NCBI GenBank assembly: GCA_013203475.1
Contig: JABMNV010000041.1
Span: 1 to 41,906 of the forward strand
DNA from: Acidobacteriota bacterium
GTDB lineage: Bacteria > Acidobacteriota > Vicinamibacteria > Vicinamibacterales > SCN-69-37
Length of the DNA stretch: 41,906 nt
Direction of reading: 5' to 3'
Part shown: one piece after another, positions 30,887 to 34,479 of the stretch
How positions within the stretch are numbered: position 1 is the first letter of the stretch
Layout of the letters: each line of letters starts with the position of its first letter
The notes under the pieces: generated by a model
Database searches by the model: none
Told to the model about the DNA's origin: nothing
The model's input: the letters and a program-made list of their open reading frames with translations, nothing else
Position numbers and translations under genes: made by a program

Positions 30887-31105
30887 TTGAGCAAGGACGA
30901 TCTCATTGATGTCCAAGGCACCGTGGTCGCCGTGCATAGCGGCGGTCTGTATCGTGTGCAAGTGGATTCCGGCCACGAAGTGTTGGCCCAGTTGAGTGGC
31001 CGGATGCGCCGCTTCCGTATTAAGGTCGTCCCAGGCGACCGGGTGACCGTGGGTATCTCGCCCTACGACCCTACCCGTGGCATCATCACCTTCCGCGCTC
31101 GCTAA
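30887..31105 (+). CDS. infA: Translation initiation factor IF-1
   Basis: 72 residues, exactly the normal IF-1 length, one OB fold. IF-1 occupies the ribosomal A site during initiation. Key sequence: SKDDLIDVQGTVVAVHSGGL and LAQLSGRMRRFRIKVVPGDR, ending GISPYDPTRGIITFRAR; the usual invariant GxMRxxRI region is here GRMRRFRIKV. The start codon is TTG 30887 supported by AAAGGA. The stop lies inside the DEAD-box gene's frame if that begins at GTG 31077 (29-nt overlap), so coupling of IF-1 and the helicase is likely. Confidence 0.95.
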   Translation: MSKDDLIDVQGTVVAVHSGGLYRVQVDSGHEVLAQLSGRMRRFRIKVVPGDRVTVGISPYDPTRGIITFRAR

Positions 31106-32387
31106 GTCGCACGAACGTGTATTGACGACAAACTCCGAAGCTCCTAGGCCAAGACGCCGGCGTCCGAAGTCCGGTGAGGGCGTGGGCAGCGGCCCACGTC
31201 CGTCAGCCCGGCCGTCTGCGCGTCCGCGCGCGGCATCAACGACACGGGTATCTGAGCCGTTTGATCCGGCCCCGGTTCCGTTCACCTCGCTCATCTCGGC
31301 GCCTGCGGTCCTTGATGCGCTGGCGCAGCGTGGATATGTGGCGACCACGCCTATCCAAAGCGCAGTGCTTCCCTATGCCCTGAAGGGCCGCCCCGTGATC
31401 GGGTGCGCCGAAACCGGCACAGGCAAGACGGCCGCGTATCTGCTCCCCATTCTGGTCAAGTTGATGGCTGCCGGGCATACTGACTCACACACGCACACGC
31501 GTGCGCTGATTCTGGCGCCGACCCGCGAACTGGCGACGCAGATTGACGATGAGATTCAGGGGTTTGCGTATCACGCCCCAGTCGCCAGTGTGCCCGTCTA
31601 CGGTGGCGTGCCAATGGGACCACAGGAACGCGCCCTCGAGGCTGGCGTCGATATTGTCGTCGCCACGCCGGGGCGCCTGCTCGATCACATGCGGAGCGGT
31701 GTCGGGGACTTCAGCAAGGTCGAAGTGTTTGTCCTCGACGAAGCCGACCGGATGATGGACATGGGCTTCTGGCCCGACGTGCGCCGCATCGCCGAGATGA
31801 TGCCGACAACGGGCAATCGGCAGACCATGCTTTTTTCGGCGACGATGCCGGAAGAAGTGATGCGATTTGCGGACGAACTGGCACCCGATGCCGCGTTCAT
31901 TCAGGTGGGATCGAGTCGTGGCCCTGCGGCGACCATCACGCATGAGGCCCGCATTGTGTCGGGACGCGAAAAATCGTCCATTCTTGCCCGGGAACTTCGC
32001 CGCGAGCGCGGAACGACCATCGTGTTTGTGAACACCAAGATCGGTTGCGATCGCCTCGCCCGTCAACTGCACCAGTCGGGCCTGCGCGCTCAGGCTGTGC
32101 ATGCGGATCGCCCGCAAAAGGAGCGGACGGAAACCATCGAGGCCTTCCGGGCCGGTCGGGTCAAAGTACTCGTCGCCACAGATGTCGCCGCGCGCGGACT
32201 GGACATTGACAATGTGGCGCTCATTGTCAATTACGAGGTGCCCCGGTCGCTCGATACCTACGTCCATCGCGTCGGTCGCACGGGCCGAAACGACGCCACG
32301 GGCCACGCGCTGACCTTGGCCGACGAGGGCGAGCGGTCGTACCTCGAAGACATCGAAAAGGCCTTCGGACTGCAACTGCTCAGCTGA
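31077..32387 (+). CDS. DEAD-box ATP-dependent RNA helicase
   Basis: 436-residue RNA helicase of the RhlE/DeaD type, which unwinds short RNA duplexes in ribosome assembly or cold adaptation. Motifs: Q-motif region FTSLISAPAVLDALAQRGYV and TPIQ; I AETGTGKT; Ia PTREL; Ib TPGR; II VLDEADRMMDMGF; III SAT; V ATDVAARGLDI; VI HRVGRTGR. A basic N-terminal tail (RPRRRRPKSG and Arg/Pro/Ala-rich PRPSARPSARPRAAS) precedes the core. The tail's true start is uncertain: GTG 31077, inside infA, or TTG 31122; neither has a ribosome site. It ends directly against the convergent TPR gene with no gap. Confidence 0.93.
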   Translation: MASSPSALAKSHERVLTTNSEAPRPRRRRPKSGEGVGSGPRPSARPSARPRAASTTRVSEPFDPAPVPFTSLISAPAVLDALAQRGYVATTPIQSAVLPYALKGRPVIGCAETGTGKTAAYLLPILVKLMAAGHTDSHTHTRALILAPTRELATQIDDEIQGFAYHAPVASVPVYGGVPMGPQERALEAGVDIVVATPGRLLDHMRSGVGDFSKVEVFVLDEADRMMDMGFWPDVRRIAEMMPTTGNRQTMLFSATMPEEVMRFADELAPDAAFIQVGSSRGPAATITHEARIVSGREKSSILARELRRERGTTIVFVNTKIGCDRLARQLHQSGLRAQAVHADRPQKERTETIEAFRAGRVKVLVATDVAARGLDIDNVALIVNYEVPRSLDTYVHRVGRTGRNDATGHALTLADEGERSYLEDIEKAFGLQLLS

Positions 32388-33464
32388 CTAGTCCGAAAAT
32401 TCCTTCGCCAGCTCCACAAATTCTCCCTCGGGGTCCAATTCTCTGTAGTGCTGCCAGTGGGCTCTGGCTTCGGCCGAGCGGCCGAGCTTTTCGAGGGTGA
32501 CGGCCAGGTAAAAATGCGCTTCTGGATACTTTGGGTTGACCGCCAGAGCCTCACGATAGGCGGCCACGGCTTCCGAGTATCGCGCCAGGTCGTGGTGAAT
32601 GTTGCCCAGGTTGAAATACGCCTCGAAACACTCGGGATCGAGCCGAATCGCCTTTTCGTAGATCGCGTCGGCTTCAACGAGCTCGTCCCGCCCATAGTGA
32701 ATATTCGCAAGATTGACCAGGGCGGGCACCAGATACGGATCAAATAGCAGCGCACGGCGATACGCGGCCGCCGCCACATCCAGATTCCGTTCATCCCCAT
32801 CGTCAAGCTCGGCGCCCTCGAGGAAGTACTTGGCGGCCAGGCTGTAGTTGGCAGAGTCAATCGCGGCGGCGCGCTCGTCTGATCCTCTCGCGCCGATGTC
32901 CCGACGCGTGGCGGGCAACGAGACGACCCGAGCCCGAGGACTGTCGACCCGAATCGGCTGAAAATCAAACGTGAGCTGCCCCGCGCGCTCGGCCACCATC
33001 GCGCGGAGAATCGCGTGCAGCGACAGGCCGCTGGCCAGGTCGGCGGCGGCAGACTTGATGATGTGCAGGTCGGCGAATGAATACCGCCCTGCGACGGAGC
33101 GAATCAGACTCCACTTCTCAAGGTAGCGGAGGTGATCGTCGCGCAAGCCCGGGTACATGCCCTGGAGGTCGCGGGGCGAGTAGTACCGGGCGCGGAGCGT
33201 GTCGAGGTCGGGTAACCCAGCCAATCGGCACAATCCGTCGTCCGTCAACACCCGCCGGACGTGCGGAGGCCACTCAGTCGGCAGTGGATCGCCGGTCGTG
33301 ATCACCACCGTGGTGCTGGCCGTCAGGGCAAAAGCACAGGTCCCACCAAGACGCTCCACCACCGACCGAAGGTCGCGGCGCGAGAGCACAGACGACTTGC
33401 CAACCACCGAGACATGCTCGGCAGTAAAGGGCCGGTCGGCAAGAATCTTGGCGGGTACACTCAC
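32388..33464 (-). CDS. BRCT-like / MerR-type HTH / TPR fusion protein
   Basis: 358 residues with three parts. An N-terminal BRCT-like fold (about 13-90: VSVVGKSSVLSRRDLRSVVE, RLGGTCAFALTASTTVVITT). A MerR-type winged helix (about 95-160: YYSPRDLQGMYPGLRDDHLR, YLEKWSLIRSV, then GRYSFADLHIIKSAAADLAS). At least four TPR units from about 205 to 345 (for example ALVNLANIHYGRDELVEADA). MerR HTHs bind DNA; BRCT domains bind phosphopeptides or DNA ends; TPRs bind proteins. The combination suggests a DNA-associated scaffold or regulator, but no target is known. Start is GTG 33464; a TAACAT box lies about 17 nt upstream. It is divergent from glk. Confidence 0.82.
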   Translation of the reverse strand: MSVPAKILADRPFTAEHVSVVGKSSVLSRRDLRSVVERLGGTCAFALTASTTVVITTGDPLPTEWPPHVRRVLTDDGLCRLAGLPDLDTLRARYYSPRDLQGMYPGLRDDHLRYLEKWSLIRSVAGRYSFADLHIIKSAAADLASGLSLHAILRAMVAERAGQLTFDFQPIRVDSPRARVVSLPATRRDIGARGSDERAAAIDSANYSLAAKYFLEGAELDDGDERNLDVAAAAYRRALLFDPYLVPALVNLANIHYGRDELVEADAIYEKAIRLDPECFEAYFNLGNIHHDLARYSEAVAAYREALAVNPKYPEAHFYLAVTLEKLGRSAEARAHWQHYRELDPEGEFVELAKEFSD

Positions 33465-33495
33465 AGGCAGTCTTCAGCCGATGTTAGCATCTGGG
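33465..33495. promoter_or_regulatory. 31-bp divergent promoter region, BRCT-TPR / glk
   Basis: Minus: TAACAT (plus 33481-33486) 16 nt before GTG 33464. Plus: TAGCAT (33485-33490) 5 nt before ATG 33496. The two boxes overlap, so the two promoters probably exclude each other. Confidence 0.45.
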
Positions 33496-34479
33496 ATGCT
33501 TCTGGCGGGCGACATCGGCGGCACCAAGACTCTCCTCGGCTTGTTTGAACCCAACGCGGACCGCCCCCACCCCAGGGTCGTGCGGGAATACGCGACGCTT
33601 GACTTCGACAGTCTCGACGAACTGATCCAGGTCTTCCTCGATGACACCCAGAGCGTGTCTGAGGTGACGGCGGTGTGTATCGGTGTGGCGGGACCGGTCA
33701 CCGGTCTGACGGCTCGCCTGACCAATGTCCCGTGGCTGGCCGATGCCTCAGGTCTGGCAGACCGCCTGACCAACTGCCCCATCGAGCTCCTCAACGATTT
33801 GGAGGCCATGGCCCACGCAGTCCCCGTGTTGGAGCCAGACGAAATCGCCGTCCTGCAGGAAGGCGTGGCGGTGCCCAGTGGCAACGCGGCGCTGATTGCA
33901 GCCGGCACAGGTCTAGGCGAGGCGCTGCTGCACAACGTGGACGGGCTATTTGTGCCCTCGCCTTCCGAAGGAGGCCATGCTGATTTTGCGGCGCGAACAC
34001 CGCGCGAGTTGGCACTGGTGAAACACCTGACGGCCATCCACGGACGTGTGGACAATGATCGCGTCATCTCGGGTCCTGGCCTGGTCAATATCTTCCGCTT
34101 CACCCACGGCGCGGCCGGTCCGGGTCTGGTCTGTGCGGCCATCGGGCCCGACGTCGACCAGGGCGAGCTCCCGGCCGCGATCAGCACCTGCGCACTGGAG
34201 GGCCGCTGCGAACGGTGCAGCGAGGCGCTGGAGATGTTTGTGGACGCCTACGGCGCGGAGGCGGGCAACCTGGCGTTACGGTCCGTGGCGGCGGCCGGCG
34301 TCTACATTGGAGGGGGCATCGCGCCAAAAATCCTACGGGCGTTGGAGAACGGCGTTTTTCTTGACGCATTTCGTGGGAAAGCGCCGCTCGTGGACTTGCT
34401 CCGGACGTGGCCCGTTTCGGTCATTTTGAATCCGGCGGCGGGGCTGCTGGGAGCGGCCATTCGGGCCTCGACACTCTGA
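33496..34479 (+). CDS. glk: Glucokinase
   Basis: ATP-dependent hexokinase of the bacterial Glk family (327 residues), phosphorylating glucose for glycolysis. Landmarks: LLAGDIGGTKTLLGLFEPNA (phosphate-1 loop), VCIGVAGPVTGLTARLTNVP, LLNDLEAMAHAVPVLEPDEI, AALIAAGTGLGEALLHNVDG (ATP site), PSEGGHADFAARTPRELALV and the C-terminal GVYIGGGIAPKIL. I chose ATG 33496 (MLLAGDIGGTKT) over the in-frame ATG 33481 because the family starts right at the GDIGGT loop; both lack a ribosome site. A strong promoter for the TonB receptor begins immediately after the stop codon. Confidence 0.93.
   Translation: MLLAGDIGGTKTLLGLFEPNADRPHPRVVREYATLDFDSLDELIQVFLDDTQSVSEVTAVCIGVAGPVTGLTARLTNVPWLADASGLADRLTNCPIELLNDLEAMAHAVPVLEPDEIAVLQEGVAVPSGNAALIAAGTGLGEALLHNVDGLFVPSPSEGGHADFAARTPRELALVKHLTAIHGRVDNDRVISGPGLVNIFRFTHGAAGPGLVCAAIGPDVDQGELPAAISTCALEGRCERCSEALEMFVDAYGAEAGNLALRSVAAAGVYIGGGIAPKILRALENGVFLDAFRGKAPLVDLLRTWPVSVILNPAAGLLGAAIRASTL

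Follow-up and report, generated by a model that had tools for sequence, protein, structure and literature searches.

A BRCT-MerR-TPR protein of Vicinamibacterales as a branch of an Acidobacteriota family with ku-linked relatives and putative clamp-binding linker peptides

Accounts of end joining in bacteria usually involve just two proteins, Ku and LigD. In BRCT domains, the pocket for 5'-phosphates or phosphopeptides consists of a T or S after beta-1 and a basic residue in alpha-2. Regulators of the MerR family, such as GlnR/TnrA and CueR, combine a winged helix with an effector-binding C-terminus, and MerR-type transcription regulators bind a promoter spacer and remodel it. The BRCT domain of RFC1 has been reported to bind recessed 5' ends (PMC9293004) and, among the peptides that bind the beta sliding clamp, the motif of UmuC is QLNLF, with a published consensus of QL[S/D]LF (PMC3716654). 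The protein described here is encoded in a window of 41,906 nucleotides, which is the whole stretch of DNA that was analysed and belongs to a metagenome-assembled genome assigned to Vicinamibacterales through named relatives. An earlier note on this DNA had proposed BRCT, MerR and TPR modules in one protein, and the profiles of relatives, a model of the N-terminus and a TPR_2 match supported all three assignments (Table 1). No characterised regulator with this architecture was matched, as the note had anticipated, and open-access papers yielded neither a characterised counterpart nor a description of the BRCT-MerR-TPR architecture or of a ku-MerR-TPR operon, although subscription papers and database annotations may differ. 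Two surveys of Ku and NHEJ that were checked (PMC7719229, PMC11936186) do not include a MerR-TPR component. The architecture is not unique to the window protein or its order, since two BRCT-MerR-TPR proteins were found outside Vicinamibacterales (L233:2536-3864 and L235:2498-4000); the BRCT domain is therefore either ancestral or was gained more than once. The window protein is an order-wide protein and represents one branch of an apparently undescribed MerR-linker-TPR family found across the Acidobacteriota, the phylum in which relatives were searched for in depth.

Table 1. Features of the BRCT-MerR-TPR gene and its divergent neighbour (positions in the window)
Feature	Residues	Positions	Strand	Remarks
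Whole ORF: BRCT, MerR winged helix, GQLTFDF linker, TPRs	358 aa	32388..33464	-	Start GTG 33464, or second GTG 33458
BRCT domain, degenerate	13-83	33216..33428	-	beta1-alpha1-beta2-beta3-(no alpha2)-beta4-alpha3
MerR-type winged helix	94-161	32982..33185	-	Profile and fold matches
GQLTFDF, almost invariant linker motif, predicted disordered	162-168	32961..32981	-	Aligns with QLNLF/QLSLF of the sister clade
ARVVSLP, second conserved short hydrophobic linker element	178-184	32913..32933	-	Sequence conservation
TPR superhelix	196-356	32397..32879	-	Pfam matches; very conserved C-terminal end EGEFVELAKEF
Glucokinase, head-to-head neighbour		33496..34479	+	PF02685, E 8e-95
Divergent intergenic region, 31 bp		33465..33495	.	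Overlapping extended -10-like boxes, 33485-33490 (+) and 33486-33481 (-)

The open reading frame is real and conserved, with a homologue in 13 of 14 genomes of the same family, and its protein is near-universal in the order (136/149 genomes); no further copy was found in its own genome, where it is single-copy. As relatives have an ATG at the position of the second GTG, this codon may be the true start. The gene converges with a DEAD-box helicase gene (31077-32387, + strand) with zero bases between the two stop codons (32387/32388), and a DEAD-box helicase was also present within the examined stretch in 12 of 20 order-wide loci. An AlphaFold model of the whole protein had a pLDDT of 79.6, with a disordered linker (residues 161-178 and 185-195 below 50). 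The tandem 34-residue TPRs are unambiguous and above the Pfam cut-off (TPR_2 at 2.2e-21, and others too). They form a near-consensus superhelix like that of TPR proteins of the TPR_2 and TPR_11 types, from which the window protein differs in its family-specific C-terminal end and its DNA-binding-type N-terminus.

By itself, the window protein scored 16.3 bits (E 0.011) against the BRCT model PF00533, below the Pfam cut-off of 21.3 bits, a weak score that is explained by the lack of alpha-2; alignment showed that the segment bearing this helix is missing in the window's family. All 28 aligned relatives matched PF00533 (best E 8.7e-10, with E up to 1 counted), and one of them (L034) reached 37.4 bits and also matched the BRCT-containing ends of the LigA and PRK06195 models. 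A family profile found the human RFC1 BRCT (5.7e-8) and LigA (6.8e-6) in the PDB. Because TPR matches dominated the fold search at full length, a separate model of the N-terminus was built. This model (residues 1-165, pLDDT 84) contained every BRCT element (beta-alpha-beta-beta-alpha-beta-alpha) except alpha-2, and its best fold match was the RFC1 BRCT, at a weak E of 1.2e-3 to 9e-3, so the BRCT fold expected by the earlier note was recovered in part, one helix short. GlnR/TnrA was found both by the family profile and by the fold of the same model. These modest fold matches are supporting evidence for both assignments, BRCT and MerR, and no proof of them. MerR_1 was matched by 15 of the 28 relatives, relatives outside the order reached 42-45 bits, and the domain is of the MerR DNA-binding type by the profiles of relatives as well as by its winged-helix fold. 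In common with GlnR/TnrA and CueR, the window protein has the L-R-Y-L-E-K-W-G-L-I-R-P core and an F-x-D-L after the wing, but in place of the effector-binding C-terminus of known MerR regulators it carries a clamp-like linker and TPRs. Two other candidates (L236 and L237) were dropped from the family as unrelated MerR proteins without TPRs.

Relatives across the order show a full BRCT domain of the LigA/RFC1 type, e.g., VVFTGKLSSLGRRDARALV..LGG..DDV..KTTMLVVG...KLKRAEELN...ILTEEEFC, and the family domain shares with RFC1 and LigA the fold order, the GG turn, the T-x-V-V-x-G strand and the C-terminal E-x-F/L-C helix. The window copy differs from RFC1 and LigA in lacking alpha-2 and its basic residues, and in its fusion partner, which is MerR-TPR and neither a ligase nor a clamp loader. 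The pocket residues are present in many order members (VVFTGKL, KLKRAEEL) and were not found in the window BRCT, where V replaces T (VSVVG) and alpha-2 is missing. In genus g5, a further 18 residues are gone from the stretch between beta-3 and alpha-3 in the BRCT domains of three genomes (L012, L013 and L014); a loss common to all three indicates shared decay rather than an error of assembly. In several order members the BRCT domain is absent altogether. The window BRCT is real by descent and optional in its lineage and, judging from its residues, probably does not bind ends or phosphates. Being optional and decaying, it is probably not the working core of the protein, which modifies the interpretation of the earlier note.

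Conservation in the window's lineage is highest in the TPRs, the C-terminal end and the linker. The linker motif is an almost invariant GQ-x-[LF]-x-F across the family; in the order, all 51 distinct homologues carry GQ[LM]x[FL][DE]F or, in one case, QLTLF, a count from a search that demanded a GQ[LM] start, and the motif is invariant in a separate alignment too. Such invariance within a stretch of predicted disorder is what a peptide-binding motif typically shows. A profile of the MerR domain plus linker found MerR-TPR proteins throughout the Acidobacteriota, including outside the order, and the linker motif is kept in these proteins. At the same linker position the sister clade has QLNLF, QLSLF, QMSLF, QMNLF, QLHLF and QLPLF, and thus fits the consensus of clamp-binding peptides. 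Only 12 such pentapeptides were found in the 1,312 long open reading frames (523,777 residues) of all DNA examined: 10 at the same place in the MerR-TPR family, one in an ImuB-like polymerase and one in what seems to be a metabolic enzyme. As the family members are related, the ten occurrences are not ten independent events. The hit in the apparent metabolic enzyme, QLSLF in L213, resembles the N-terminus of methylmalonyl-CoA mutase rather than MutS and was counted as chance. The window version, QLTFDF, is not a textbook clamp peptide; it resembles the hexapeptide type represented by QLELPL of ImuB-like proteins, and its assignment, putative and by sequence only, is less certain than that of the sister-clade motifs. 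ImuB-like proteins of the order carry QLELPL, QLGLF or QLPLF. The DinB proteins of the order (L101-L126) mostly have an unusual clamp-binding tail, which ends in LPF(D/E) and lacks the glutamine that is usual there, and were no help as a yardstick for this reason. The BRCT-MerR-TPR protein L235 has QLRLPF, a clamp-like motif of the hexapeptide type. Between their MerR helix and the linker motif, most ku-linked members (L151-L166, L188-L217) carry a further conserved segment that is rich in beta structure, LTxxRIxAxGxRVVVRxGxxxWxPESGQ.

Outside Vicinamibacterales, ku (its identity backed by Pfam) directly precedes the MerR-TPR gene, in the same orientation, in 24 of the 30 best family loci; four further loci have ku upstream as well. 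Reciprocally, of the 30 best ku loci across the phylum, 17 are followed by the MerR-TPR gene and 13 lack it; both sets contain the best-scoring loci and are not random samples. In one case (L226) ligD comes first, giving a ligD-ku-MerR-TPR operon. No ku lies in the vicinity of seven members of f23. Relatives outside the order form an operon with known components of NHEJ, whereas the window copy is unlinked from ku, as is its order: ku was beside the gene in none of the 35 Vicinamibacterales sequences checked, and the gene was beside ku in none of 20 ku loci. In Vicinamibacterales, ku was found in only 98 of the 149 genomes, and the protein is present in genomes without it (e.g., G010, which is 100% complete); its function must therefore be possible in the absence of ku too. 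In a midpoint-rooted tree of 69 proteins with long deep branches, Vicinamibacterales formed one clade (SH-aLRT 99) that grouped (97) with a partly ku-linked clade carrying the clamp-type motifs, and ku linkage was found on both sides of the deepest split. The simplest reading is that ku linkage is ancestral and was lost in Vicinamibacterales. The link to DNA damage that the earlier note had suggested is thus supported by the relatives, which lie directly downstream of ku/ligD, together with the clamp-peptide-like linker; the scaffold role proposed with it is putative.

Our favoured reading, to which we assign a probability of roughly 0.4, is that the family consists of adaptors of DNA repair and replication, within which the window member represents a derived branch that has no linkage to ku. 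The MerR winged helix, with the BRCT domain where this is intact, would contact DNA, the QLxLF or QLx[FL]DF peptide of the linker would dock on the beta sliding clamp, and the TPR superhelix would bind a partner such as Ku, LigD or another repair factor; bound to DNA, the protein would thereby serve as an adaptor that couples the repair of breaks or gaps to the replication clamp. The window's lineage has a decayed BRCT domain and its gene would have moved from ku to glucokinase, and the repair role may consequently be reduced or combined with control of the local promoter. This reading is favoured because of the RFC1/LigA type of the BRCT domain, the ku linkage seen in both directions, the ligD-ku operon, the invariant linker, the clamp motifs of the sister clade, the grouping in the tree and the recurrence of BRCT-MerR-TPR proteins outside the order (L233, L235). 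It is weakened by the lack of ku adjacency in the order, the genomes without ku, the atypical QLTFDF, the sequence-only basis of the clamp-like peptides, the ku loci without the gene, the f23 members without ku and the linkage to glucokinase.

The last of these points to a serious alternative, the main rival, which we consider somewhat less probable than the adaptor: that the protein regulates the divergent glucokinase promoter, and its own, as a transcription factor of the MerR type, with the TPRs as a sensor or oligomerisation module and the BRCT domain as a vestige. The neighbour is indeed glucokinase, diverging over the short interval that the earlier note had described, and this head-to-head arrangement recurs across the order in 17 of 20 loci, which come from many families, and is kept where the BRCT domain has been lost (L093-L095, L097, L099). 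However, the family is linked to ku and not to glucokinase outside the order, the protein is retained in genus g5 (L054, L055) and in L057, L084, L096 and L098, where glucokinase is not adjacent, and an invariant clamp-like linker with TPRs would be superfluous for such a role. The overlapping -10 boxes proposed for the intergenic region were confirmed as extended -10-like boxes (TGtTAGCAT on the + strand and TGcTAACAT on the - strand), identical in three close relatives, but a scan of 33300-33650 detected no sigma-70 promoter with -35 and -10 elements, and any operator is putative. By eye, a TTGACA-like box precedes the regulator in many order members, in keeping with a promoter-bound factor. 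On the strand of the regulator, L083, L086, L088, L091, L092 and L094 share an upstream element, TTGACA...CATTCTC...CATCTT, which is a possible promoter or operator and is absent from the window's family. Separately, the ATG of glucokinase follows -10-like boxes at a distance of 5-7 nt in several species (e.g., L094 and L095; 33480-33498 in the window), suggesting that its transcript is probably leaderless or near-leaderless. Adaptor and regulator are not exclusive roles, as an adaptor could gain a regulatory role on moving to a new locus.

A further possibility is that the protein is a general TPR scaffold in the window's lineage, whose MerR and BRCT domains no longer bind DNA and whose conservation reflects only contacts between proteins. 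The loss of alpha-2, the greater loss in genus g5 and the peak of conservation in the TPRs, C-terminal end and linker would fit such a scaffold, but the winged helix (HLRYLEKWGLIRPVAGRYSFxDL) stays well conserved across both the order and the phylum, and we regard this explanation as improbable. Chance resemblance as the source of the BRCT and MerR assignments, which the sub-threshold score of the single sequence might suggest, is rejected on the BRCT matches of the relatives and on the hits to RFC1/LigA and GlnR/TnrA by profile and by fold; these leave it hardly any probability.

Returning to the adaptor reading, we tentatively propose that the Acidobacteriota may encode an adaptor of the MerR-TPR type, in some cases extended by a BRCT domain, as an unrecognised accessory to end joining. 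It would tie Ku-bound DNA ends to the beta sliding clamp, and Vicinamibacterales may have re-deployed it beside glucokinase. If this is true, the conserved partner in the ku operon would be a third end-joining component that connects the repair of breaks with the replication machinery, and Vicinamibacterales would provide a clear case of a repair-associated adaptor that has lost its ku linkage and its BRCT function within one order.
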